Shown piece by piece: positions 384 through 36,239 of a DNA stretch of 46,180 nt. Under the pieces are notes generated by a model. The model did not search any database and was not told where the DNA came from. It saw only the letters and a list, made by a program, of their open reading frames with translations. Origin of the DNA: Gemmataceae bacterium (GTDB taxonomy: Bacteria; Planctomycetota; Planctomycetia; Gemmatales; Gemmataceae); contig SIAQ01000028.1 in the NCBI GenBank assembly GCA_009697105.1, positions 1 through 46,180 on the forward strand, read 5' to 3'. Made by a program: the position numbers and the translations under genes. Each line of letters begins with the position of its first letter. Position 1 is the stretch's first letter.

Positions 384-3300
384 TCATCCGATTGCTGCGC
401 CGAGGTCGCCGGGGCAGGGTACGAATTTTTGTCCGCACTCCGGACAAGTCGCCGCGCCAAGTTGCCACATGTGATGGCGACACGAAAGCATCGCCGGCGC
501 GGCATTGGGAACGGCGGGCAGAAAATCGCGGAAGTACCATTCGACCCAGCGGCGGATCTCGTCCAGGTTGCCGCGCGGATCGTCGTTCATGCGGACCCGT
601 TGTTCGCCAATTTGGAGAGTGTACCTGCCATCGCCGCGCTGCACGGCGATCGATGCACCCTTGGGATAGCTCGTGATGCAGGCACCTTCGATCCAGACGC
701 CTTGCGTTCCGATTACGATATTGGGCTTGGGCGCATAGAGCAGCACATCGGGATAGTGCTTGAGGATGTCGGCGTAATTCTCGCTGGCGTTGGCGAGTTC
801 CAAGGCAGTCAACGCCTCGCCCGCACGTTGCCAATGTTTCCCATCACGCTTCTGCCAAAATGCCTGGAAGCGAATCCAGTGCATGGGTTGATTTAGTCGC
901 AGGACCGCGTCGAGCACAGCGAAAGCTCGGCCCAGGTTCAGCCAATCCTCGAGTTCGACGCCGGCGGCAAATGCGCGGTCGGCGAGCAGGATCGGCAAGG
1001 CGTTGAGCTGGGACTTGGGCCAGGCGTCACGCTCACCGCCATGAAAGCACGCCAAAAGCTCGACGAGAAACACCGGCGGCAGCTTCGCCTTGAAGACCTC
1101 GTCCGCGAGCGTCAGTAAAAGATCCCACGGTTTTTCGCCGGCATCGCGCATCCCGGCAATACTGCGACGGCTCAAGGATGCCAGGCAAGCCCGCGCGATC
1201 GGCTCGGTTCGCGCGGGCACGCTGACTTCCTCACAGCAGTGCAGAAGCAAATCGGCATCGATCTTCACCGTCGGCACGCGATTCGACATCTCGACCAGCC
1301 CACGTAAAAAGCTCCAGTCGCGCGGGCCCATTTGCTCTTGCAGAATCTCGGGAACGAGCAATCGCCAGGCAACCGCGAGCAGACGATGCTCGGCAGGCAT
1401 CGGCGTCGGCCAAACGAGATACAGCAAGCCGCCCGCGACAAGTCCCACGCCAAGCCCCAAACTCGCGACAACAACCACGGGAAACGCCTTGCCTGTCGCC
1501 AGGTCGAACGCGGCATAGGCTCCCGCCGTGAGCGGTCCAACGAAAAACAGAATCCCGCCGGCGCGCGTCAACCACCGCCCCTTTTCGCGGCCTTTGAACA
1601 ATATCGCATCGGGTGTTTCGATTTGCATGTGCGGGAACAATCCCACCTCCGAGACTTCGAGATGGTAGCCGAAGCCATCCAACTCCCCATCGCCCATCGC
1701 CAACGGTGTCACAACGGCTTCCGTTTCGATGGCCAGGGTGACACAGCAATGCGGGCAGAGTGTGGCATCGCGCGCCCTTACCGACTCGCGTAGTTCGCGC
1801 ATAAGTTCCGGCTCGCGCAGCCCACGCCGATAGAGCAGCCGCTGAAGCCGCGCGACGCCGGTCTTCGGATCATCGCGGATGGCCAAGCTACGGCAGGCGT
1901 GCAATACCTGCGGATCCTTTTCGAGGCCGTAGTCAACGACCCAATCCTCGATGACCCTCCAGGGTTCGCGCACCCGTTGACCGTCGAGATGGAGGCGATG
2001 CTTGTCCCACAAATGGCCGACCATTTCGCGTTTGACGAGTTCCGTCGGGCAGCGCGGACAGCTCATGCGGGTCTCGTTATCCAGCTCTTGCTCAACGATA
2101 TCGATCGCCTCGGAATGCCCGAATCGCTGCTCGAGTCGCCGCAGCTTTTCAATGCCGCGTTTCTTCGTGGATTGGGCGACATACGCGCGGAGCATTTTCG
2201 TTGCACTGGCGATGTTTGAGCCGAAGCCGCGCAACAGCGCCAGGGCGGCGTTTTCGCGGGCCCGGCGCGGAAGCTCCTTGTTGTCCAAATGCGGCAGTAG
2301 CAGGTCTGCGACCTTTGGTGGGATCGGCACCTCCTGGCGAGCCGTCACCTCAAATGCCAGACGACGACCGAGCAATTCCCACGAGGTATTCTTGCTTGGG
2401 CCGACGAACAGCGGCAACATCGTCGCGGCCGACTCCGTCGCTGCGATAGTCTCCGCGAGAGCGCCAAATGCCAGCTCGCGCGTTCCTCCTTCCGCATCCT
2501 TGATGAATTGGTAAAGCCAGACAACCAAGTAGCGCTCAGCCTTGCCTGGATACTTGTCCGCCGCCAGAGCCGCCAGGCTGATCCATGCCGCGGTGTCGCC
2601 CGGCGGCGAGCAGACCGCCTTCACCATCGCTGCACGCACCTCCTGATAGCTGCCTCGTTCGCCGCGAAACTGAAATATCTGATGGGCTTGCCGAAGGTGG
2701 CGCTCAATATCCTTGCTCTGAACCTCGGCCTTGCACTCCACGCAAGCGATGGTGTGTTCCTCGCGAAGTTGCGTCATCACTGGATCAAGCATCGCGCCGT
2801 CGAGGCCACGCCCTTGCAATCGCTTGCACAACTCAAGCTGCAAATCAACGACATCTTTCACGGGAACGAATAACTTCAGCAGCCGGCGAACCTCATTGGC
2901 GGTCGGACGCTGGCGCAGGTTCTCCTCAAAGAAGGGCAACACCGTTTGCATGCCGAGGTCGCGCAACCGCACCTCGTCAGACGCGAACAGCAATCGCACA
3001 ATCGGCGTAAACAACGGGCAGTGCCTCACCAGCGATTGAACGCCCGCAATGGCAGCATAGGGCAGTGCACGCGGAATCGCCTGCGGATCGTTCGCCTCAC
3101 CCAGGAGAAGCCGACCAAGGTCGGCGACGTAGTCCCTTGCGACCGCTTCCGGCTTACCGACTTTGCCGTAGATCGCCAGCAACTCCTGGTGTGCGACGAC
3201 ATCGGAACTGCTGATAACACGCTCCCAAAGCCTACCAAGCACGGCATTCGCCGACTGCACGTCGCCATCGTGCAGGACATAGCCGTGCTCGCTGAGCAAA

Positions 3301-5147
3301 TGTGACGTGCGTTGCCCTGGCGCCAGCGTTTTTTTGCAAAGGGGACATTCGCTCGGCAACGTCGCTTCCACCTGGCGGACGACCGATCCCACGCGATCCT
3401 CGGTCACTCCCAACTGTCGCAGGAAATGTGCGATCGGCACCGGCGTGTCCAGGGTTCCCCTCTGCATCCCTTCGATCAAACGTATGAGCACGGCATCGGT
3501 TTTTTGCGGAAACGATGTCCACCACGCCGCCGCTGCGATCTGGCGAATCTCGCCGCTGGTATCGCCGAGGAAACGCCAAAGCATCGCTTCGAGATATTCG
3601 CTGCGCGGCGAGCTGCGGACGTGCTGCTCGAGCCGACGCAAGGCCCAACCGCGAACCCGTGGATTCGTGCACGCTAGCAACGCATCCACCACGTGGATCG
3701 CATCAATCACGCCGATCACCATGCCGACGCGCGCCGGCGGCGAAGCGACATCGGACGATTCGTAGGCTTGCTGCTCAATCCATTGTCGGAGGTTTGCCGG
3801 CGTCGGTTGCCAAAGCGTAGCGACGACGCCCGGCGAATACACCGCCGCATCCGCTTGCTTCCGACGAGTGAATGCCGTGAAGTAAACCTCCTCGGCAGTC
3901 ATCGGCAGCCCGACGACATGCAGCACCGGACGCAATGGCCCATCCGCAACCGTCGTGCCGTCCGTCGGCGTTTGAGGTGGCGTCCCGTGGCGCATCTGCA
4001 CCGTCAACTCCAGGCTCATGTCTACGCCGGTGCAATCCAATAGCAACTTCGCGATGTCCGCATCCGTGTGCAACGCGATCAAACCCGCCAACGGCGAGGG
4101 CGGCGGGCTTACCAGCCAACCCGACAGCTCAGCAACCGAGCGTGGCCGACGCGACGGTTCGGGCGAAAGCAACAGCCGAAACGCCGACACGAATCGCCGC
4201 GGCCATTCCTTCGCCAATCCCGCCGGATCGATGCCGAGTTCCTCCGCCCAGGCGTGAATTGTGTTCGCCGGCAGCTGCATCAAAAACTTGTCAATCTCCG
4301 CCCAGTGCGATTCCTCTAGTACCGCCCATGGACGCCCCTGCTTCTCGGCCAACCTTTCAAGATCGATGCCGGCAAACAAACCGAACGCCAGCATGCCCCA
4401 TGCAAATAGATCCGAGCGCTCATCGGGTCGTGTCTTTGCACTGAAACACTCCGGCGCCGCGTAGCCGCCCGGAAATCGTCCCGCCGGAAAAAGCCGCACC
4501 CAGGCGGCCATTGCGTCGTCCTTGAGCAGCGCATTTTGCCGCGATAGGGCAAGCTCCGTTCCCACATAGTGCACGCGATCGCTGGCGTCGATCAGCAGCG
4601 CCTGCGGGCCGAGACCGAGCAACAACAGATCCTCGGCATGGGCCTGCTTGAGAAAATCGAGCACTTCCGCCAACACCGACAAAATCGACGACACCGGCAG
4701 AATCTGCTCCTGCCATTCGCGCAACGCCTGGCCGTGAGGCCGTGTGAAAATGGCAACCGGCTCGCCCGCCCGTGCCGCTTCGTCGTGAAACGTAAATGCA
4801 TCGCGGGTGTTATCGATCGCCAGCAGGTCAATCGCTTCCGGCCACAGGTTGCTCTGCCGATTGCTGAGCACGATACGCATCTCCGCGTGCGTGAGCGCCC
4901 GGCGTTGTTGGATGTAGGTGGGATCGTCAAGGATGGGGTAGCGATTGGTGCGGATGAGCACATCAAGCCATTCGAGTTCATCGGTTTCGCGAACGCGCTT
5001 GGCGTTGAAGTCGAAGTTGTAGAAAATCTTCTTGCCGACGTAAAGGAAATGCCAGGGCGTTTCGCGCAACACAGACGTGACAACATACCCGCCCGGTTGC
5101 TGGGCAGGGCCACCGCCCTCCAATCGCTCGCCGACGTGTAACCTCAT
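384..5147 (-). CDS. Giant membrane pseudokinase with three C2H2-like zinc fingers among helical repeats
   Basis: The start is taken at the ATG at 5147 (1587 aa); an upstream GTG at 5183 would add 12 residues but has no Shine-Dalgarno. Residues about 30-350 look like a degenerate protein kinase: an APE-like motif (YAAPECF), the downstream SDLFAWGMLAFG helix and a C-lobe SRRP are visible, but the HRD and DFG catalytic motifs are replaced (HAED, VGT). Then follow long HEAT-like helices. Three copies of C-x2-C-x11-H-x4-H are spaced through them at C601/C604/H616/H621, C802/C805/H817/H822 and C1030/C1033/H1045/H1050. A CPHCC remnant lies at about 1131. Two membrane segments (about 1191-1214 and 1221-1246) precede a C-terminal region ending in a CPECG zinc knuckle. 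I know no named family with this architecture. A scaffold or sensor role is inference. Confidence 0.8.
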   Translation of the reverse strand: MRLHVGERLEGGGPAQQPGGYVVTSVLRETPWHFLYVGKKIFYNFDFNAKRVRETDELEWLDVLIRTNRYPILDDPTYIQQRRALTHAEMRIVLSNRQSNLWPEAIDLLAIDNTRDAFTFHDEAARAGEPVAIFTRPHGQALREWQEQILPVSSILSVLAEVLDFLKQAHAEDLLLLGLGPQALLIDASDRVHYVGTELALSRQNALLKDDAMAAWVRLFPAGRFPGGYAAPECFSAKTRPDERSDLFAWGMLAFGLFAGIDLERLAEKQGRPWAVLEESHWAEIDKFLMQLPANTIHAWAEELGIDPAGLAKEWPRRFVSAFRLLLSPEPSRRPRSVAELSGWLVSPPPSPLAGLIALHTDADIAKLLLDCTGVDMSLELTVQMRHGTPPQTPTDGTTVADGPLRPVLHVVGLPMTAEEVYFTAFTRRKQADAAVYSPGVVATLWQPTPANLRQWIEQQAYESSDVASPPARVGMVIGVIDAIHVVDALLACTNPRVRGWALRRLEQHVRSSPRSEYLEAMLWRFLGDTSGEIRQIAAAAWWTSFPQKTDAVLIRLIEGMQRGTLDTPVPIAHFLRQLGVTEDRVGSVVRQVEATLPSECPLCKKTLAPGQRTSHLLSEHGYVLHDGDVQSANAVLGRLWERVISSSDVVAHQELLAIYGKVGKPEAVARDYVADLGRLLLGEANDPQAIPRALPYAAIAGVQSLVRHCPLFTPIVRLLFASDEVRLRDLGMQTVLPFFEENLRQRPTANEVRRLLKLFVPVKDVVDLQLELCKRLQGRGLDGAMLDPVMTQLREEHTIACVECKAEVQSKDIERHLRQAHQIFQFRGERGSYQEVRAAMVKAVCSPPGDTAAWISLAALAADKYPGKAERYLVVWLYQFIKDAEGGTRELAFGALAETIAATESAATMLPLFVGPSKNTSWELLGRRLAFEVTARQEVPIPPKVADLLLPHLDNKELPRRARENAALALLRGFGSNIASATKMLRAYVAQSTKKRGIEKLRRLEQRFGHSEAIDIVEQELDNETRMSCPRCPTELVKREMVGHLWDKHRLHLDGQRVREPWRVIEDWVVDYGLEKDPQVLHACRSLAIRDDPKTGVARLQRLLYRRGLREPELMRELRESVRARDATLCPHCCVTLAIETEAVVTPLAMGDGELDGFGYHLEVSEVGLFPHMQIETPDAILFKGREKGRWLTRAGGILFFVGPLTAGAYAAFDLATGKAFPVVVVASLGLGVGLVAGGLLYLVWPTPMPAEHRLLAVAWRLLVPEILQEQMGPRDWSFLRGLVEMSNRVPTVKIDADLLLHCCEEVSVPARTEPIARACLASLSRRSIAGMRDAGEKPWDLLLTLADEVFKAKLPPVFLVELLACFHGGERDAWPKSQLNALPILLADRAFAAGVELEDWLNLGRAFAVLDAVLRLNQPMHWIRFQAFWQKRDGKHWQRAGEALTALELANASENYADILKHYPDVLLYAPKPNIVIGTQGVWIEGACITSYPKGASIAVQRGDGRYTLQIGEQRVRMNDDPRGNLDEIRRWVEWYFRDFLPAVPNAAPAMLSCRHHMWQLGAATCPECGQKFVPCPGDLGAAIG

Positions 5148-5289
5148 ACTCTCATTATGGCGAATGCCAGCGGATGCGGGCACAAAAAATGAAGCGACAG
5201 GCGATATAGGTGATATTATCTACATTCATTCCCGACCCTACTTCTTCCCCCCAGGTAGATTCACGTTTAACGAAAAGAGTTCTGCTTCA

Positions 5290-6844: not shown

Positions 6845-9394
6845 TCATTTCTTCCGCTGCGGTCGGCTTTCAGCGACGGCCGTCGTCGGGTCTTCGGGCC
6901 AGGCGTGTTTGGGATAGCGGATACGCAGCTCCTTGCGAATGAGCGGGTAGGTGTTTTTCCAGAAGCTGGCAAGATCGTCGGTCACCTGCTGCGGGCGATA
7001 ATTCGGTGCCAACAGGTGAAGCAAGACTCGCACCCGGCCGGCGGCGATACGCGGCGTTTCCTTCAAGCTGAACATTTCCTGAATGCGAACCGCCAGCACC
7101 GGCGAACGGCCTGTTTCATAGGCGAGCGCGATCCGACTGCCGCTGGGAACCTGCACGCTCTCCGGCGCTTCGCGGTCCACCATTTGCATCTGTGTTGGCG
7201 TCAGTTTGCTCTGCAGCAACCCCAACCAATCGGCTCGACGAACCTCGTCGAACGATCGGCAATCGGCGCAGGCCCACGGCAGAAGATCGCCAAGTTCGAC
7301 ATCGTCAAACGCCGGCAGGCCGAGGTCGGGCATCTGCTCGCGCAGCCAGCGCGCCCGTGCCAAGAACAAACCGCCGGCGATTTCGGCCTCGGGCAGTACG
7401 CGCGACAGCCGAGTGCGCCCCGCTTCCGCCAAACGGTGCGACGCCTCGTCGGATTTAGGCAATGACGCCGGGGTTTCTTCGATCAGTAAATCTTCGTACA
7501 TCCAGCGTTTGACGGCGACGAGCCGCTCTGATGCTTCGTCAAAGTCGATGTCGATCTTCGCCACGATCGCGCCCGCCAGCCAATCGCGCTGAATGGATGA
7601 CGCCTGGCGCACCAGTGTTTCGCGCGGGTCGGCATTGACATCAATGGCAAGAAACAACTCCGCCGAGGACAGCGTGCACCAGGGTGCGAGCCGCACGCCG
7701 CTTCCCCCGACCATGACGCCTTTGGTCGGATCGACCGCCCGCCGCCGCGCGACACGATCGGGAAACGCCGTCAATAGCGAGCGCGACACCGCTTCGTCCG
7801 CCTCGATCCGATTTAGTCGCGTGGCGGCGGCATCGCTTCGCAACATACGCAGCATTTGATCGCGTGCCCGAAGCAAAAACCTCGCGGCTTGTGGCAACAA
7901 CGTGCCGACAGCGAACGATGTCGTCCCGTCGGCCTCGTACGCCTCTAATGCTCGCACTCGTTCGAGCACGTCGGACTCGGCATCGACCTTTCGACGAATG
8001 GGCGATCCACTTTCACCACGGCCGCGTGTAAAGGGATCGCGCTCCGCAAGCAGCGCCGCCGCCAGGGCGACGCGCGGGCCATGACCGAAGCGCTCGCCTT
8101 CGAGCAACATGCTTGCGAGCCGTGGGTGAACGGGCAGGCTCGCCATCGCTCGGCCTTGTTCGGTCAAACCCGAATCGCCGATCGCGCCAAGCCGACGAAG
8201 CAGCGTCATCGCCTGGTCAATGGCGTCACTTGGCGGGGCGTCAAGCCAGAGAAAGTGCCGCACGTCTGCCTCGCCGATCGTGAAGAGTTGCAAAACAGCG
8301 CCGGCGAGATCAACGCGAAAAATCTCCGACGACGTGCGCTCCGGACGATGGGCATGCGATGCCTCGGACCACAACCGAACGCAAACGCCAGGCTGGGTGC
8401 GCCCCGCCCGGCCCGCGCGCTGGTCGGCAGCGTCACGCGCAATTGGCGTGAGTTCCAGGCGATCCATGCCGACGCTCGCATCGAACGTCTGCATCCGCGC
8501 CAGGCCGGTATCGACGACAGCCGTGATGCCCTCGACAGTGACCGACGTCTCGGCGACGTTGGTCGCCAACACGACGCGCCGCTGCGATTGCGGCTGCAAG
8601 GCGCGATCCTGCTCCTCGGGCGACAAATCGCCATGCAACGGCAGTATAAGAATATTGTCGTATCCTAGGCGATCCTGCAATTCGCGCGTGGCCTGGCGGA
8701 TTTCCTGCATGCCCGGCAGAAAGCAGAGCACATCGCCCGGTGTCTGTTGCAGAACGCGCTCGACGGCTTTCGCGGTGGCGATGGGCCAGGCGTCCTGCGT
8801 CGAGCGTGGATCGTACATGATGTCCACGGGATGCAGCCGGCCTTCGCTCGTGATAATCGGGCAGGCGGGCTTATTCGTGCCGCTCGTCAGATATGCGGCA
8901 ATCGTTTCGGTATTGAGCGTGGCGGACATCACGAGGATGCGCAGCTCCGGGCGCACGGTGGTTTGCAACAAGCGAATCATGCCCAGCGCAAGGTCGTTGT
9001 CGAGCGACCGTTCGTGGAATTCGTCGAACACAACGATACCGAATGCTTCGAGAAACGGATCGTCCTGCAACATGCGGAGCAATATGCCAGGCGTCATGAC
9101 GATAACGCGCGTGCGCGGCCCAACCTGGCGATCGAAGCGAACGTGGTAGCCGACGTCATCGCCGACGCGCTGGCCGCGCTCGTGGGCCATGCGGCGGGCG
9201 GCGGCACGGGCGGCGAGGCGGCGAGGCTCCAGCACGGCGATGCGTCCAGGGACGATGCCGGCATCCAACAGCGCCGGCGGCACGCGCGTCGTCTTGCCGG
9301 CTCCCGTCGGCGCACGCAGCACTACCGAGGCGTGATCGCGCAACGTCGTCAGCAATTTCGGCAGGACCAGATCGATCGGCAGCGGGTCGAACAT
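6845..9394 (-). CDS. hrpB: ATP-dependent helicase HrpB
   Basis: This 849-residue DExH-box helicase matches the normal HrpB length. Walker A APTGAGKTT is at 28-36, the DEFH box at 124-127 and the SAT motif at 157-159. A later QRAGRAGR (motif VI) completes the helicase core. The C-terminus carries the family's characteristic tail (NYRPQQVTDDLASFW...YPLIRKELRIRYPKHAWPED). HrpB proteins are RNA-helicase-like enzymes of poorly settled cellular role in bacteria. The start ATG has a GAGGAT Shine-Dalgarno. The gene is divergent from the radical-SAM gene at 9504. Confidence 0.96.
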   Translation of the reverse strand: MFDPLPIDLVLPKLLTTLRDHASVVLRAPTGAGKTTRVPPALLDAGIVPGRIAVLEPRRLAARAAARRMAHERGQRVGDDVGYHVRFDRQVGPRTRVIVMTPGILLRMLQDDPFLEAFGIVVFDEFHERSLDNDLALGMIRLLQTTVRPELRILVMSATLNTETIAAYLTSGTNKPACPIITSEGRLHPVDIMYDPRSTQDAWPIATAKAVERVLQQTPGDVLCFLPGMQEIRQATRELQDRLGYDNILILPLHGDLSPEEQDRALQPQSQRRVVLATNVAETSVTVEGITAVVDTGLARMQTFDASVGMDRLELTPIARDAADQRAGRAGRTQPGVCVRLWSEASHAHRPERTSSEIFRVDLAGAVLQLFTIGEADVRHFLWLDAPPSDAIDQAMTLLRRLGAIGDSGLTEQGRAMASLPVHPRLASMLLEGERFGHGPRVALAAALLAERDPFTRGRGESGSPIRRKVDAESDVLERVRALEAYEADGTTSFAVGTLLPQAARFLLRARDQMLRMLRSDAAATRLNRIEADEAVSRSLLTAFPDRVARRRAVDPTKGVMVGGSGVRLAPWCTLSSAELFLAIDVNADPRETLVRQASSIQRDWLAGAIVAKIDIDFDEASERLVAVKRWMYEDLLIEETPASLPKSDEASHRLAEAGRTRLSRVLPEAEIAGGLFLARARWLREQMPDLGLPAFDDVELGDLLPWACADCRSFDEVRRADWLGLLQSKLTPTQMQMVDREAPESVQVPSGSRIALAYETGRSPVLAVRIQEMFSLKETPRIAAGRVRVLLHLLAPNYRPQQVTDDLASFWKNTYPLIRKELRIRYPKHAWPEDPTTAVAESRPQRKK

Positions 9395-9416
9395 TTCATC
9401 CTCGTCGGTTGTCTCT

Positions 9417-9422
9417 TATAAT
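9417..9422 (+). promoter_or_regulatory. Possible -10 box (TATAAT) ahead of the FtsH-like cluster
   Basis: An exact TATAAT lies in the 109-bp gap between divergent hrpB and the radical-SAM gene. The hexamer 17 bp upstream (TTTCAT) is a poor -35. The box is about 80 nt upstream of the first start codon, leaving room for the hairpin-like repeat in the leader. Confidence 0.35.
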
Positions 9423-9442
9423 ATCCGAGGTTGGCGCCGTCG

Positions 9443-9493
9443 GTATTGGGTGACCCGCTTACGTGGGATACCCCGAGCGCCAAACGCAAGCGG
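9443..9493. repeat. Diverged copy of the GCGGCTTAGCGCTC palindrome family
   Basis: Positions 9461-9493 match the loop and right arm of the hairpin at 19763-19826: ACGTGGGA is shared in the loop, and GAGCGCCAAACGCAAGCGG corresponds to GAGCGCTAAGCCGCAAGCGG. The left half is eroded, though GTATT survives at its outer end. It ends 10 nt before the ATG at 9504, the same placement as in intact copies. Confidence 0.5.
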
Positions 9494-9503
9494 ACAACAA
9501 TAC

Positions 9504-10103
9504 ATGCCCTCGAGCCTACAACTCTCGGTTGCTCAGATCGTCCCCGTCACGGAAGCGGAGGGACCAGGCCGACGGTTCGCGCTGTGGTTTCAGGGCTGCC
9601 CGCTGCGCTGCCCCAGTTGCTGCAATCCGGAGATGTTGCCGTTTGCGGGCGGAACGCCGATGACGCTCGTAGCTGTCGCTGAGTTGTTGCGTGCAGCCCA
9701 TGTGGAACATCGGCTCGAAGGCATGACACTCCTTGGCGGCGAGCCGTTCGCGCATGTCGAGGCTGCAATTGCGCTCGTTGACGAAGCGCATCGGCTAAAT
9801 CTATCGGTGATGCTGTTCAGCGGTTACACCCTGGAGAATCTGCATGCGGATCCCGGTGCACAGCCATTGCTCGACCGCATCGATATTTTGGTCGATGGTC
9901 CCTACCTGCGCGATCAGCCGGAGAAGAAACTGCGTTGGATCGGGTCGGCCAATCAGCGCGTGCATTTTCTGAGCGACCGATGCTCAGCCGACGATCCGCG
10001 CTGGCGCTTGCCCAATACCGTAGAGATTCGCCTGCGCGATGGCGTGGTCACGGTGAACGGATTCCCGGTAGCGGGAATCGGATTGGGGCTGCGCACACGA
10101 TGA
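9504..10103 (+). CDS. Small radical-SAM activase-like protein (4Fe-4S single-cluster)
   Basis: This is a 199-residue protein from the ATG at 9504; an upstream ATG at 9450 is less likely because it would place the repeat inside the gene. The radical-SAM cluster motif C-x3-C-x2-C is visible as C32-PLR-C36-PS-C39, followed by LLGGEPF at about 76-82, which contacts S-adenosylmethionine in this family. The length and layout resemble NrdG/PflA-type activating enzymes without an SPASM domain. No ribonucleotide reductase gene is adjacent. The stop codon overlaps the next start in ATGA (10100-10103), so translation is coupled to the next gene. The target may be one of the cluster proteins, which is inference. 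Confidence 0.85.
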   Translation: MPSSLQLSVAQIVPVTEAEGPGRRFALWFQGCPLRCPSCCNPEMLPFAGGTPMTLVAVAELLRAAHVEHRLEGMTLLGGEPFAHVEAAIALVDEAHRLNLSVMLFSGYTLENLHADPGAQPLLDRIDILVDGPYLRDQPEKKLRWIGSANQRVHFLSDRCSADDPRWRLPNTVEIRLRDGVVTVNGFPVAGIGLGLRTR

Positions 10104-11131
10104 AAGCTGTTTCGGGGTTTGAGTACAACCTGTTGCGTATGTTGCGTGGAATCGTAACCCAGGTATCGCCAGAGCAGATATTGCCGATCTTGGCGAAGCC
10201 CGTGCAACGCCCGCCCTGTTTGAGCGCGGACGCCGTCGCGCTTGTGAAGGATATTCTTGCGAAAGGCATGGTGCGCTGGCTAGCTCGCCATGGATGGGCT
10301 AGTAACCGCTACCTGCGCGAAGGCGTTCCGGTGTCGGGCCGACTCTGGGAGCGCACGCCGCCGGAATTGCTCGGCTTGAAGTTCTCGCGCTGGACGCTGG
10401 AGTTTCTGCTGCAACTGATGTCGAACACACTTGGCGCCAAGAAACCGCAGGCGGATGAGTTGGAACTAGGCGATCGGCTCATTTTCTTGCATTCATACCA
10501 GGCAGTGCGTGGCGATGAGCGTGCGGAGAAGATGCAGAATCATTGGCCCTCGCTTTGGAGCGACGGCCTGTGCCGACTGTTTTTTGTGGAGGAGTTGATC
10601 GACGCGAAGACGCTAACGCGCATCGACTGGTCGCCGTGGCTCACAGAGCAGGGGGCTGCGATTCTGGAATCGATGCAGTCTGCACTCGCTGAGCGCTGGG
10701 AGCATCTGGAGGCTCGCAAGCAAACGTTCCGCGACGTTGTCAAGATTCGCCAATTCGGCGCATCGCAGGCACGGGTACTGGGCGAATATCTCGACGCGAT
10801 CGATGCCGTCCATCGTCGCGATTTGGCGCGGTGTCTGCTCGATGCCGGTCGCCGGGTGATGCGCGATCGGCCAACAGCCCATCGCTGGATCGGCAACCTC
10901 GACATCAAGCGCGAGCGCATCGCCGACCGCGTGCTGATCTACCGCGATGCATTGGCGTTTTTGCATGCATTGGATCGCCTGCGAGCGTGGAACGAGGAAG
11001 CATCGCACGTCGGCTATTTTGACGAAGGCTATGTCGCCAGCCAGTTGTGGAAAGCCGTTTGGGAACGCTTCGACGGCGATGCGACAACGAATCACGCCGC
11101 CGAGATCTTGCGCGAAGCGCGGCCAATGTAG
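10100..11131 (+). CDS. FtsH-ternary-system-like 'X' domain protein, helical
   Basis: This 343-residue, mostly helical, soluble protein has no signal peptide or membrane segment. From memory it resembles uncharacterised planctomycete proteins with a conserved start (LRMLRGIV ... ILAKGMVRWLARHGW) and the block GRLWERTPPELLGLKFSR, which occur beside AAA+ FtsH-like proteases. In the comparative-genomics literature these are grouped as X components of FtsH-centred ternary conflict systems. No catalytic motif is visible. The start overlaps the radical-SAM gene by 4 bp. The last two residues and the TAG stop (11129-11131) lie inside the left arm of the inverted repeat at 11123-11286, so the repeat supplies the gene's end. 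The family assignment is recalled and should be treated as moderate. Confidence 0.7.
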   Translation: MKAVSGFEYNLLRMLRGIVTQVSPEQILPILAKPVQRPPCLSADAVALVKDILAKGMVRWLARHGWASNRYLREGVPVSGRLWERTPPELLGLKFSRWTLEFLLQLMSNTLGAKKPQADELELGDRLIFLHSYQAVRGDERAEKMQNHWPSLWSDGLCRLFFVEELIDAKTLTRIDWSPWLTEQGAAILESMQSALAERWEHLEARKQTFRDVVKIRQFGASQARVLGEYLDAIDAVHRRDLARCLLDAGRRVMRDRPTAHRWIGNLDIKRERIADRVLIYRDALAFLHALDRLRAWNEEASHVGYFDEGYVASQLWKAVWERFDGDATTNHAAEILREARPM

Positions 11132-11286
11132 CACAACGCTCCGCGTTGTAGTTTTTCGGTCACGAAGAGGCTGTGGTTATTCGCCGTGGGGGTACGTTGC
11201 CATCGTGCCATTTCGCTGGAAAATACGGTACCCCAGAAATGTATCCCACGAACAAATTCACAACGCGGAGCGTTGTGCTACATTGG
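11123..11286. repeat. MITE-like inverted repeat, 27-bp perfect arms, 164 bp
   Basis: Arms at 11123-11149 and 11260-11286 are exact reverse complements (core TAGCACAACGCTCCGCGTTG). A 110-bp interior separates them, holding only a weak inner pairing (GGGGTAC with GTACCCC). The long interior sets it apart from the short-loop hairpins elsewhere. The left arm carries the stop codon of the upstream gene; the right arm ends 15 nt before the next ATG. Confidence 0.9.
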
Positions 11287-11301
11287 AAACGAGGTTTCAT
11301 C

Positions 11302-11874
11302 ATGAGCCGAGCATACAAAATCAGTCTGAAGCAGCGCACGAAGCACGGCCTTCGCGCCAGCGACGAGGTCGGCACCGCGCTGGAACTGCTCGAAATCTTG
11401 CCGCCCGAACGCATGGCCGACTTGCTCGCGCAAGAATTGAAACGGCGAGGTTTCGTTCAAAAAGGTGACAAGCTGCTCCGCACGGAAAAAGGCGGGGTCA
11501 CCGTCGAAATCGATCCGAAGTCGGCGGACGTGATCGTCAAAGTCGAGTGCGAGAAGACTGTCACGATAGAGGCGGAACGCCAAACCTGGACCGAATCGCC
11601 GGCCGGCTCCGCGCAGAATGCCGCCCGGAAATCGCTGAAGGAGGAGCTGCAACGCGACCTGCAACGCAAAGCCGAGGCGCAAAAAGCCGAACTGCAGAAG
11701 CGAGCGACTGACCGCCTCGAAGCGCAGTTGAGCGACCTTCGTAAAGAGCTAGACCAAGCCGTCAACCGCGTCACGGCCGAGGCACTGAAGGAAAAGGCGG
11801 CCAGGCTCGGCCAAATCAAACAGATCAGCGAAGACGCCCAAACCGGCTCGCTGACGATCGTGCTCGAGGTATAG
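11302..11874 (+). CDS. Coiled-coil protein of the FtsH-like cluster (second 'X' component)
   Basis: This is a 190-residue protein from the ATG at 11302, with a GAGG Shine-Dalgarno about 7 nt upstream. The first 80 residues form a small alpha/beta unit containing LELLEILPPERMADLLAQEL and a stretch that reads like a beta sheet (GVTVEIDPKSADVIVKVE). Residues about 105-175 are a charged coiled coil rich in K, E, Q and R. I recall similar short proteins next to FtsH-like AAA+ genes in planctomycetes, and the order here fits a ternary-system adaptor. No enzyme motif is present. The gene starts 15 nt after the repeat at 11123-11286 and ends 15 nt before the next hairpin. Confidence 0.75.
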   Translation: MSRAYKISLKQRTKHGLRASDEVGTALELLEILPPERMADLLAQELKRRGFVQKGDKLLRTEKGGVTVEIDPKSADVIVKVECEKTVTIEAERQTWTESPAGSAQNAARKSLKEELQRDLQRKAEAQKAELQKRATDRLEAQLSDLRKELDQAVNRVTAEALKEKAARLGQIKQISEDAQTGSLTIVLEV

Positions 11875-11889
11875 TTTAGCCGCTTCGTT

Positions 11890-11949
11890 TTGCCGCTTGC
11901 GGCTTAGCGCTCGCATGGCACCTTGCGAGCGCTAAGCCGCAAGCGGCAA
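11890..11949. repeat. Inverted repeat, 26-bp perfect arms (CTTGCGGCTTAGCGCTCGC family)
   Basis: Arms at 11890-11915 and 11924-11949 pair perfectly around the 8-nt loop TGGCACCT. It lies 15 nt after the upstream stop and 14 nt before the FtsH-like start codon. The 3' half of the loop plus the right arm (CACCTTGCGAGCGCTAAGCC) is nearly identical to the copy at 15798-15862. Confidence 0.95.
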
Positions 11950-11963
11950 TACAAGGAAAAACG

Positions 11964-14048
11964 ATGCAAATCCCGGAAAACGAACTGCCGCGAGAGCTGA
12001 CGCCCGAGCAAGCGGTCGAGGCGGCCTACGCTAGCGAATTGGCGGACGTCGCCGATCGGGTGCGGCGCGGGCTGCCGGCGCTTGTCGAGTGCGACAAGGA
12101 TCTTTCCTTATTCATCTACATGAACCTGCGCGCCCGGCTCAAGCAAGCGAATTTGCAGTGTGTGCTGATCGACGGCCGTCAACGCGCGCAGAGTGACACC
12201 AGCGGTATTCCGCTCGGCTTCCTTGCCACGATGATCGCGCAGATCCGCGATGCCGTGCGTGGCTCCGTCGAACGCAAAGTCCTCGTCTTGCCCCACCTTG
12301 ACCTGTTGACTACCAGTCAAGGCGGCCTGACGACCGAGGCCCGCGAAGTCATTCCGCTGCTGTATGAAAACCCCGACCTCGTTTGGTTGGGGCTTAAGGA
12401 TCCGTCGTTTCCGTTGCCCAGCGTCATCGAAAATTTGTTCCCGCATCGCGTGAGCTTATTCGGCATCGCGCGGCCACGCCTGCGTCATCTCGTCACGCAA
12501 AAAGAAGCACGCAAGCTCGGCACGCATTTCAATCCATGGACGCTCTACAAACATGTCTCGGGCATCAACGCCGTTCGCTTGCGCAAGCTGCTCGCCTCGC
12601 TCGATGGTGAAGACTACCCGGCCGACGCACGCAAGGCCTATGCGCAAATCCGCCAGGCGACGCTTACGGGAACGCTCGAAATGCCAAACGTCGCGCTCGA
12701 AGCCGATATCGGCGGCTATGCCAAGGTCAAAGAGCGATTGCGCAAAGAAATCATCGACGTCCTGGCGATGAAGGACAGGCTGACGCGCGAAGACGACATC
12801 AAGCACATTGAGGAGCTGATCCCCAAGGGCATGATCTTCTGGGGCCCGCCGGGTACGGGAAAAACGCTGTTCGCCAAGGCGATGGCGTCAGCGCTCGGTG
12901 CCGCCATCACCGTCGTCTCCGGGCCGGAACTCAAGAGCAAATGGGTCGGCGAAAGCGAGCAGAACCTTCGCCAGATTTTTCAGCGGGCCCGGCAGTCCGC
13001 GCCGGCGATCATCGTGTTCGACGAACTCGATTCCTTCGCCACAGCCCGCGGAACCTACGAAGGCTCCGGCGTCGAGCATTCGATGGTCAACCAACTGTTA
13101 ACCGAGATGGACGGCTTCCATCGCGACGAACTCGTCTTCGTCGTCGGCACGACGAATTTCGTCGAGTCGCTCGACCCGGCATTGCTACGTCCGGGGCGGT
13201 TCGAGTTTCATTTGTACATCCCGTATCCCGATGCCGACGACCGCCGAGCGATTCTGGAAATCTACGATCGTAAGATGAATCTAAGGATGACGCCCGCAGC
13301 GTTTGATCACGTCGTGAAACGCACGGGCGATCCGGTTGAGGGCGCAGCGGCTGGGACGCGCTACAGCGGCGATCACCTCAACGCGCTGTGCCGAAGCCTG
13401 GCGCGGTATCGGCTGCGCGAGAGTGTCAACGGCCCGACCGAACCCGCCGACATCGATCGCGTACTGACGGAATGGATCGAGCGCCCAAAGCTCACCGCCG
13501 CCGAGGAGCGCGTCGTCGCCACGCATGAAGCCGGGCATGCGGTCTGCGCTCTGTTCAGCGAGCACGCGACGCCGATCGAACGCATCTCGATTCAGGCTGA
13601 CACCGCCGGCGCGCTGGGATTCGTGCGCTATCAGGACCCGGCTCATCGCTATGTCGTCACACGCGCGGAACTGCTCGACGATCTCTGCATCCTGATGGGT
13701 GGCCGCGAAGCCGAAGCGCTGTTGTTGAACGACATCTCGATCGGCTCGACGAGCGATTTGCAGCGTGCGACGGCCATCGCGCGGGCGTTAGTCGAGGAGT
13801 TCGGCCTCGGCGGCGAAGGCGTCCCCGTGTGCCGATTTCGCGACGACATCACCGGCGGAGTACGCGTTCTATCGCAAATGCAAATGGAAGCGCTCGATCG
13901 CCGGACCGCCGAGCTAATCGAGTCCGCCCGCAGCCGAGCCGCGACGATCCTGCGCGAGCAGCGCAGCGTCGTCGAAGTTCTTCGCGACATGTTGATCGAG
14001 TGCAAGGTGATCGACGCGAAAACGCTGGCGAAGGTGGTGGGGCGGTAG
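11964..14048 (+). CDS. Soluble FtsH-like AAA+ zinc protease with a degenerate first AAA domain
   Basis: This is a 694-residue protein. Residues about 1-230 resemble an AAA domain that has lost its Walker A (the slot reads [14 protein letters not shown]). The second AAA domain is intact: Walker A GPPGTGKT at 294-301, pore loop KWVGE at 326-330, Walker B VFDELD at 351-356 and arginine fingers in LLRPGRFE (R409, R412). The M41 peptidase domain has HEAGH at 521-525, GGREAE at 579-584 and the third zinc ligand in SDLQRAT (D598). Standard FtsH is anchored by two N-terminal membrane helices, and none are present here. The protein should therefore be a cytosolic ATP-driven protease. It is the presumed core of the cluster starting at 9504. 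Confidence 0.93.
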
Positions 14049-14079
14049 GCAACGATACCCAGCGGTCGCATATTATTGT

Positions 14080-14131
14080 CGCTTGCGGTTTAGCGCTCGC
14101 GCGGGATGATCCGATCGCTAAGCCGCAAGCG
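14080..14131. repeat. Inverted repeat, 20-bp arms (CTTGCGGCTTAGCGCTCGC family)
   Basis: Arms at 14080-14099 and 14112-14131 pair at 18 of 20 positions. The loop (CGCGGGATGATC) resembles the loops at 9461 and 19788, which share a GTGGGA-like core. The copy ends 17 nt before the exonuclease start at 14149. Confidence 0.85.
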
Positions 14132-14148
14132 AAGGACAGGAACACACC

Positions 14149-14697
14149 ATGCCCGAAATCTATGTCAGCACCGACGTCGAGACCGATGGCCCGATTCCCG
14201 GGCCTCACTCGATGCTCAGCTTCGCGTCGGCGGCGTACCGCGCGGACAAGACACTTATCGCTACGTTCAGCGCCAATCTTCAACTCCTGCCTGGCGCGAC
14301 AGGCGATGTGCGAACAATGGCGTGGTGGGCCCAAAACCAGGCCACGTTCGATGCGACGCGCGTCGATCTCGAAGAGCCGATGGAGGCGATGCGGCGCTAT
14401 GTGGCGTGGGTCAACGCCTTGCCTGACACGCCCGTGTTCGTTGCTTACCCGGCTGGCTTCGATTTTCTGTTTGTGTACTGGTATCTGATCCGCTTCGTTG
14501 GCGAGAGTCCGTTTTCGTTCTCGGCACTTGACATGAAGACCTATGCGATGGCGCTACTGAAAAAGGAATATCGCCAATCGGTGAAAAAAAACATGCCCAA
14601 AGCGTGGTTTGATGACTTCCCACACACGCATGTCGCGCTCGATGATGCGATCGAGCAGGGCGCCCTGTTCTGCAACATGCTGGCGGCGAATAAGTAA
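14149..14697 (+). CDS. DEDDh-type 3'-5' exonuclease
   Basis: This is a 182-residue DnaQ/RNase T-like fold. Catalytic residues are visible as D9 and E11 in [10 protein letters not shown]105 in GFDFLFV and the H161...D166 pair in [11 protein letters not shown], which defines the DEDDh subclass. The whole protein is the nuclease domain, with no polymerase or RNA-binding extension. Its start is preceded by the hairpin at 14080-14131, of the same family as the one before the protease gene. Whether it belongs to the protease cluster or is a neighbouring housekeeping 3'-5' exonuclease cannot be decided from sequence. Confidence 0.85.
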
Positions 14698-14779
14698 TAG
14701 GCGCATCCATTCGGTCTCGCTTATCCCACCGATAGGTTGATTGCGACAGGTAGCACTAGCAAGGGCCGCTGGAATTCGC

Positions 14780-14785
14780 TATAAT
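14780..14785 (+). promoter_or_regulatory. Possible -10 box (TATAAT)
   Basis: An exact TATAAT lies 42 bp before the DUF1559 start codon at 14827, in a 129-bp gap that has no hairpin repeat. No good -35 hexamer is found 16-18 bp upstream. Confidence 0.4.
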
Positions 14786-14826
14786 GAACGGTAGAACCGG
14801 TGGGTTTCGCCTCTTGGGCAACATTC

Positions 14827-15797: not shown

Positions 15798-15862
15798 CCG
15801 CTTGCGGCTTAGCGTTCGCATCGCCCCAGTAAAGCACCTTGCGAGCGCTAAGCCGCAAGCGG
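15798..15862. repeat. Inverted repeat, 23-bp arms (CTTGCGGCTTAGCGCTCGC family)
   Basis: Arms at 15798-15820 and 15840-15862 pair with one mismatch. It begins 14 nt after the DUF1559 stop and ends 19 nt before the lipoprotein start. The loop-to-right-arm segment matches the copy at 11890-11949. Confidence 0.92.
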
Positions 15863-16330: not shown

Positions 16331-16355
16331 GCCGCTTGCGAGCGCTAAGCTGCAA
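16331..16355. repeat. Remnant of the CTTGCGGCTTAGCGCTCGC family
   Basis: The text GCCGCTTG is joined directly to CGAGCGCTAAGCTGCAA, as if the inner part of a palindrome had been deleted. It lies between the convergent ends of the lipoprotein gene and the peptidase gene, touching the stop of the latter. Confidence 0.6.
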
Positions 16356-16358
16356 ATA

Positions 16359-19762: not shown

Positions 19763-19826
19763 GTATTCCGCTTGCGGCTTAGCGCTCACGTGGGACATTC
19801 GGAGCGCTAAGCCGCAAGCGGAATAC
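19763..19826. repeat. Inverted repeat, 25-bp perfect arms (CTTGCGGCTTAGCGCTCGC family)
   Basis: Arms at 19763-19787 and 19802-19826 pair perfectly around a 14-nt loop (ACGTGGGACATTCG). It starts 19 nt after the DUF1501 stop and ends 15 nt before the arsC-like start. Compared with the 11890 copy, the outer stem reads TTCCGC/GCGGAA instead of TTGCCGC/GCGGCAA: both arms changed together. Confidence 0.95.
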
Positions 19827-36183: not shown

Positions 36184-36239
36184 GCCGCTTGCGGCTTAGC
36201 GCTCGCAAGGCGCCACGCGAGTGCTAAGCCGCAAGCGGC
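36184..36239. repeat. Inverted repeat, 23-bp arms (CTTGCGGCTTAGCGCTCGC family)
   Basis: Arms at 36184-36206 and 36217-36239 pair with one mismatch around a 10-nt loop. It begins 12 nt after the uvrC stop and ends 35 nt before surE. It is the only recognised member of this family far from the 9-20 kb cluster of copies. Confidence 0.93.

Follow-up and report, generated by a model that had tools for sequence, protein, structure and literature searches.

A radical-SAM, fvmX6, fvmX5 and FtsH-like gene block of a Gemmataceae bacterium as a candidate part of a dispersed FtsH-MoxR-vWA ternary system

Genes and products of the block

The analysed DNA, referred to as the window, is a stretch of 46,180 nucleotides from a Gemmataceae bacterium (assembly GCA_009697105.1, contig SIAQ01000028.1, forward strand). 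Between positions 9504 and 14048 it carries a block of four genes on one strand, found at the positions given in a preliminary description made from the sequence alone. They encode a radical S-adenosylmethionine (radical-SAM) protein, two proteins of families that Pfam labels as "FtsH ternary system" domains, and a soluble relative of FtsH:

9504-10103, plus strand: radical-SAM protein, NrdG/PflA-type activase-like, 199 residues (Pfam Fer4_12, 1.8e-33; Radical_SAM, 6e-7)
10100-11131, plus strand: fvmX6 (X6), FtsH ternary system domain X6, 343 residues, helical with one beta hairpin (PF20004, 2.3e-69)
11302-11874, plus strand: fvmX5 (X5), FtsH ternary system domain X5, 190 residues, a 67-residue helix between beta-rich ends (PF20003, 1.1e-54)
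11964-14048, plus strand: soluble FtsH-like AAA+/M41 zinc protease, 694 residues (PF00004, 6.3e-42; PF01434, 8e-34)

The Pfam matches of all four genes lie far beyond chance, and the same four-gene order is repeated in dozens of genomes. The end of the radical-SAM gene and the start of the X6 gene share the bases ATGA at 10100-10103, which is the 4-base overlap noticed beforehand. The preliminary description had also named, as a candidate match, FtsH-centred ternary systems with 'X' domains; the Pfam search bears this out by assigning the 10100 product to X6 and the 11302 product to X5. An Rfam scan of positions 9300-14800 yielded nothing at the gathering threshold.

Gene neighbourhoods were the basis on which FtsH ternary systems were predicted (Kaur, Burroughs, Iyer and Aravind, eLife 2020, PMC7159879), and the kind of system discussed here is already published. 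As far as that paper's account of the simple type (vWA-MoxR subsystem 3) goes, it comprises an FtsH-type protein, a MoxR ATPase, a stand-alone radical-SAM enzyme, helical X proteins and a divergent von Willebrand factor type A (vWA) protein with a large N-terminal helical domain, in planctomycetes and in myxobacteria (there as deltaproteobacteria). The radical-SAM enzyme is listed in section 21 of the paper and is therefore not a new component of such systems. A literature search found no experiment on FtsH ternary systems, and for 'fvmX' it returned only unrelated papers.

The AlphaFold2 model of X6 (mean pLDDT, the predicted local distance difference test, 93) consists of helices plus one hairpin, in agreement with the helical protein proposed for this gene; it has no match with E<=0.001 in the PDB or among viral models. 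In the model of X5 (mean pLDDT 87; predicted template modelling score 0.66) a single helix spans residues 103-169 between the beta-rich ends, which fits the earlier coiled-coil assignment, and here too the comparison with the PDB gave no match with E<=0.001.

The protease combines an AAA and an M41 domain. Its hydropathy reaches a mean of only 1.53 over 19 residues and reveals no clear membrane segment, so that the predicted soluble AAA+/M41 protease was recovered; nine of 52 compared homologues exceed a mean of 1.6. The zinc site, formed by the HExxH motif at residues 521-525 (HEAGH) and the distal Asp598, is kept in 51 of the 52 distinct homologues, the exception being broken at a contig end, and the Walker A and B motifs are likewise kept in 51. 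From the retained M41 site it can fairly be inferred that the FtsH-like component degrades proteins. Housekeeping FtsH shares the AAA and M41 domains with the HExxH motif and the Asp. However, the window protein reaches 274.9 bits against an FtsH cut-off of 600, displays no clear transmembrane segment and begins with a region of about 245 residues for which no PDB sequence match was found (residues 1-245). This region contains no Walker A motif, and two Walker A motifs occur in none of the 52 homologues; a conserved LPHLDLL (48 of 52) occupies a possible Walker B place. PMC7159879 describes two FtsH-type AAA domains, the N-terminal one inactive; the missing Walker A would be in line with this, but a profile comparison lent it no support (see below). 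Section 21 of the paper words the component as an FtsH-type ATPase and chaperone, and the term 'M41' has no match in its main text, whereas the M41 protease site is conserved here.

The radical-SAM protein is short and carries the C-x3-C-x2-C motif (TEAEGPG..RFALWFQGCPLRCPSCCNPE), both features of the NrdG/PflA activases (TIGR02491, TIGR02493). A further Cys after the motif is invariant (18 of 18), and a SPASM domain is absent among the Pfam matches. An ordinary activase of NrdG or of another glycyl radical enzyme, standing here by chance, would account for the best NCBIfam match (NrdG, TIGR02491), for the Fer4_12 match and for the nearest solved relative, the pyruvate formate-lyase activating enzyme (sequence profile, 2.8e-15). 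However, the protein stays below both curated cut-offs (102.9 of 126.1 bits for NrdG) and differs from these activases by the extra Cys and by a fixed partner, X6, which it accompanies in 72 of the 73 X6-bearing genomes described below. NrdD, the only glycyl radical enzyme searched for, was detected in none of these 73 genomes, compared with six of 14 control genomes. The reading as NrdG was accordingly rejected, and a chance activase appears extremely improbable.

Activation of a system protein by a glycyl radical was also considered and rejected: the motif RVxG[YFW] is found in 2/122 X6, 0/101 X5, 1/87 FtsH, 0/73 X3-analog, 2/104 X7, 0/14 MoxR and 0/6 vWA sequences. The glycine of an apparent 'VGY' motif in X6 varies (101 scored: G 79, S 10, A 5, R 3, T 2, N 2). 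The best guess for the target of the enzyme is X6 itself or something held by X6, because X6 is its steadiest neighbour and the pair sometimes occurs without X5 and FtsH. Section 21 of PMC7159879 instead proposes a peptide effector encoded by another gene. Neither a peptide precursor nor NEFF1 was identified here, no NEFF1 model having been used; the only small recurrent gene in the neighbourhood clustering is the X3-analog (about 88 residues).

Dispersal and co-occurrence of the system parts

In the genome of the window the system extends over at least three contigs: one bears the block itself (C89), a second fvmX3-analog and fvmX7, identified by Pfam (C58), and a third MoxR and a vWA gene (C51). 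The 32 kb of the window downstream of the FtsH gene hold no other system part. The MoxR (bpMoxR, 2.5e-58) is unlinked to the window, and the gene beside it encodes 482 residues matching ivWA (5.2e-43) and ivWA-helical_N (7e-27), which identifies the divergent vWA component. The gene for RtcA, the RNA 3'-phosphate cyclase, lies on yet another contig (C45).

Clustering of the neighbours at 61 X6 loci (the window and loci L037-L096) gave the order RtcA, radical-SAM, X6, X5, FtsH, a gene of about 88 residues and then a gene, or a pair of genes, reaching about 1150 residues. Pfam identifies the genes after FtsH as fvmX3-analog and fvmX7, and in some loci MoxR (bpMoxR, 1.1e-61) comes next. X7 and MoxR are adjacent in six X6 loci and not adjacent in 22, while a contig end intervenes in seven. 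Two adjacent X7 genes, the second being shorter, diverged or cut by the end of the stretch, are frequent at Gemmataceae loci (L055, L058, L062 and others); the search of the window's genome detected one X7. The complete series radical-SAM, X6, X5, FtsH, X3-analog, X7, MoxR and ivWA is contiguous in L171, L194 and L209 (Pyxidicoccus fallax), where the end of the stretch cuts ivWA and leaves 397, 149 and 57 residues, respectively. The single neighbourhood by which the class was presumably found is thus present in these three loci and absent from the window's genome. Named strains with the core block are Gemmata sp. IIL30, Zavarzinella formosa, Limnoglobus roseus and Pyxidicoccus fallax. Compared with the simple type, as far as PMC7159879 outlines it, differences include the distribution over at least three contigs in the window's genome and the presence of RtcA upstream of the radical-SAM gene in many relatives.

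The radical-SAM gene had been proposed as a possible fixed partner of the system. Of the 49 X6-anchored loci with such a gene, 48 have it beside X6 (same strand, gap of -700 to 1500 bases), the one miss (L046) being due to an over-extended start of an open reading frame; 12 of the 61 X6-anchored loci contain no radical-SAM gene. The loci collected with the radical-SAM protein comprise the top 80 among 288 relatives; the two genes adjoin in 58 of them, and the misses L192 and L203 are again artefacts of reading-frame starts. Together with the genome counts given next, this supports the proposal of a fixed partner.

Co-occurrence was determined in a class sample of 397 genomes, in which X6 was called by the Pfam cut-off, the radical-SAM protein by alignment at E<=1e-30 and ivWA by scoring over its cut-off. 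X6 is present in 73 genomes (G486, with a match below the cut-off, is outside this set), the radical-SAM protein in 93 and ivWA in 76. Setting aside by hand 13 radical-SAM matches of 119-230 bits, 12 of them outside the window's family, leaves a strong set of 80; the partial matches in G385, G409 and G465 were kept, and G385 is among the 72 X6 genomes with the protein. The only X6 genome that lacks it is G429, a draft assembly of 1500 contigs in which X6 is partial. On the same contig and within 3 kb of X6, the radical-SAM gene lies in 59 of the 72 genomes, and in 13 the two are apart. ivWA is found in 68 of the 73 X6 genomes, within 20 kb of X6 in only three, a number that contig breaks may lower. 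In the 11 X6 genomes assembled into four contigs or fewer, the distance between vWA and X6 is 10 kb (G153), 33 kb (G158) and at least 142 kb in the other nine.

A reverse search covered 17 of the 19 loci listed without X6 (L200 and L201 were left out). In 12 of the 17 genomes the radical-SAM gene, though not beside X6, is accompanied by an X6 that exceeds the cut-off at another position. The class search had already yielded 11 of these 12, as judged from identical contig coordinates, and they do not constitute an independent sample.

Among seven sampled members of the window's genus, X6, the radical-SAM protein and ivWA are present together in three (the window's genome, G242 and G415) and jointly absent at the thresholds in four (G278, G314, G364 and G426, the last 74% complete). 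That unlinked genes are jointly present or absent argues well for a single functional system: the parts, which tend to be retained or lost together even when distant, probably work as one. In a sample of the phylum, X6 was detected in five of 149 genomes at E<=0.001 and over the cut-off in one, the window's own; the system is therefore concentrated in certain groups.

The couple of MoxR and vWA on C51 resembles pairs of the NorQ/NorD type. The latter, a MoxR-vWA pair of known function, insert iron into nitric oxide reductase, according to the portion of PMC9976466 that treats them. By analogy, the present system might be a factory for assembly or maturation of a metalloenzyme, with the radical-SAM protein engaged in cofactor chemistry and FtsH in quality control, and housekeeping-like inheritance (see below) would suit such a role. 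However, a protease, a radical-SAM enzyme and X proteins accompany the pair here rather than a client metalloenzyme. None of the genes that recur close by encodes a client enzyme, RtcA and the X proteins being the chief repeated neighbours, and delta-aminolevulinate dehydratase (family f11), a metalloenzyme that does recur, is restricted to a minority of 10 loci. Moreover, cofactor insertion needs no active protease. A metalloenzyme factory is therefore considered very unlikely.

Inheritance, RtcA and neighbouring features

X6 is a single-copy gene, a second intact copy being found in no genome of the class search. The trees of X6 and RpoB, calculated for 56 genomes, have 27 of 53 splits in common, and the Spearman correlation of their distances is 0.68 (shuffle maximum, 0.31). 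X6 and its neighbour X5 have 26 of 49 splits in common, about as many as X6 and RpoB. Agreement with RpoB amounts to 21 of 45 splits and a correlation of 0.68 for X5, to 12 of 35 and 0.60 for FtsH, and to 15 of 44 and 0.75 for the radical-SAM protein. Searches of 72,556 plasmid records and 50,697 phage records detected no relative of X6 at E<=1e-5. The system looks more like a resident of these genomes than a roaming element.

This bears on the role predicted in PMC7159879, where sections 21 and 24 assign the families to a class of biological-conflict systems directed against phages or other invaders: a thresholded nucleoside triphosphatase complex would sense invasion and deploy FtsH together with a radical-SAM-modified peptide effector. 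Related ternary systems of the VMAP type possess diversified sensors, as set out in part of PMC10907252. In the window, similarity to the anti-phage ATPase IetA was found for the AAA domain of the protease (PADLOC, 1.1e-29; NCBIfam, 95 of 510 bits), although general AAA kinship may give other AAA domains the same similarity. The gene that immediately follows the protease gene (14149-14697) is exonuclease-like and matches an 'Effector' exonuclease of PADLOC (1.3e-30). In relatives, the proximity of RtcA to the system would fit attackers that damage RNA. On the other hand, the exonuclease forms no recurrent family at the loci of relatives, PADLOC matches the radical-SAM protein (0.00083) and X5 (0.0017) only weakly and X6 not at all, and X6 relatives are missing from the plasmid and phage records named above. 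Single-copy, largely tree-like inheritance and scattered genes, with vWA at least 142 kb from X6 in nine of 11 near-finished genomes, are slight evidence against a mobile defence system of the usual kind. A conflict role thus appears possible, though not likely.

In the lineage of the window the radical-SAM gene is often in line with the gene of the RNA-end enzyme RtcA. The latter lies directly upstream in 31 of the 49 X6-set loci with a radical-SAM gene and is absent in 18. All 31 stretches of the X6 set that contain RtcA, and all 37 of the radical-SAM set, have it directly before the radical-SAM gene and on the same strand; in L147 the two genes share a 4-base overlap. RtcA as an obligatory part of the system was considered and discarded: it is present in 31 of 40 X6 genomes but also in 15 of 40 without X6, and it is retained in G278, G314 and G364, three of the genus members without the system. 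In the Rtc pathway, as summarized in a part of PMC11090510, RtcA produces 2',3'-cyclic phosphate ends that are sealed by RtcB. Neither 'RtcA' nor 'RNA cyclase' has a match in the main text of PMC7159879, figures and source data being outside the search, and a literature search, which did not cover supplements and figures, found no paper linking RtcA with the FtsH ternary system.

Two intergenic features interrupt the block:

11133-11276, no strand: stretch between the X6 and X5 genes, flanked by the inverted pair ACAACGCTCCGCGTTGT; possible small insertion
11895-11944, no strand: hairpin repeat between the X5 and FtsH genes, resembling repetitive extragenic palindromic (REP) elements; recurs across the window

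The inverted pair (11133-11149 and 11260-11276) bounds about 145 bases, possibly a small insertion element; four matches to ACAACGCTCCGCGTTGT were found against 0.24 expected, a number reached in one of 100 shuffles. The REP-like repeat, GCTTGCGGYTTAGCGCTCGC, mostly forms inverted pairs and has 11 matches in the window with up to three mismatches, against 0.01 expected (11895-11944, 14081-14130, 15800-15860, 16338-16357, 19770-19819 and 36187-36236). Farther upstream, on the minus strand, positions 384-5183 encode a protein of 1599 residues with a weak protein-kinase-like region (MADS6, PglW, PD-T4-6; the NCBIfam matches far below cut-off), a weak HEAT match and, by eye, several CxxC...H segments. 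Outside the window, a Myxococcales relative of the radical-SAM protein (L201, 4276-8270) has no X6 nearby; a large neighbouring protein displays, by eye, an HEVGH motif and an AAA-like fragment, and the locus is possibly another MoxR-type context.

Proposed role of the system

Taken together, the block is rather probably the radical-SAM, X6, X5 and protease part of a simple-type FtsH-MoxR-vWA ternary system that is split over at least three loci and would work as follows. A MoxR ring and its vWA partner would remodel a complex built on X7, X6, X5 and the X3-analog. The remodelled complex would license the soluble FtsH-like ring, with its intact ATPase and M41 sites, to unfold and degrade a target. 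Through its fixed link to X6, the radical-SAM enzyme may modify X6 or a partner held by X6, and this modification might prime or arm the complex. The identity of the genes, their order in relatives, their co-occurrence and the conserved ATPase and zinc-protease sites carry the part of this explanation that concerns the composition of the system. Its role is most likely a response to stress or damage that resides in these genomes and passes on largely by vertical inheritance.

Several observations weigh against this explanation. The radical-SAM protein occurs without X6 over the cut-off in eight of the 80 strong genomes (21 of 93 overall), and five of the 17 reverse-searched genomes likewise have no X6 over the cut-off. 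At some loci (e.g. L179, L196 and L206) the radical-SAM and X6 genes are present without X5 or FtsH within the stretch, and the co-occurrence counts are uncorrected for shared ancestry, so that Fisher values calculated from them do not serve as probabilities. Profile comparison of the N-terminal region of the protease with the active AAA domain gave probabilities of 0.27% and 0.14% and hence no support for an inactive AAA domain there. The glycyl radical, the sole radical-acceptor motif sought, is conserved in no part of the system. Furthermore, two groupings of the RpoB tree, namely family f2 and the genomes outside the window's family (f1), are broken in the X6 tree, so that some transfer is likely.

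The additions made here to the published class are evidence for the unity of the system across unlinked loci and for the fixed radical-SAM partner, the conserved protease site, the largely tree-like inheritance and the link to RtcA. The boldest reading, which takes gene order as its sole basis, joins proteolysis to RNA repair: the FtsH ternary system would be a proteolysis machine that resides in Gemmata-like planctomycetes and is linked to RNA damage, and not a roaming defence island. RtcA would heal or mark broken RNA ends, the radical-SAM enzyme would modify the X6 platform, and MoxR and vWA would let the soluble FtsH-type protease clear the affected complexes. We regard this reading as rather unlikely; if true, it would to our knowledge be the first case of an AAA+ protease that is controlled by a radical-SAM enzyme and coupled to RNA repair.

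For this family of systems, the co-occurring yet unlinked arrangement points to a functional unity beyond neighbourhood evidence, especially for the radical-SAM gene. It provides a list of components for genetics and co-purification, namely the radical-SAM protein, X6, X5, FtsH, the X3-analog, X7, MoxR and ivWA. In addition, two testable claims arise: that the system may degrade proteins, as suggested by the retained M41 site, and that it may be tied to the repair of RNA ends, as suggested by RtcA.

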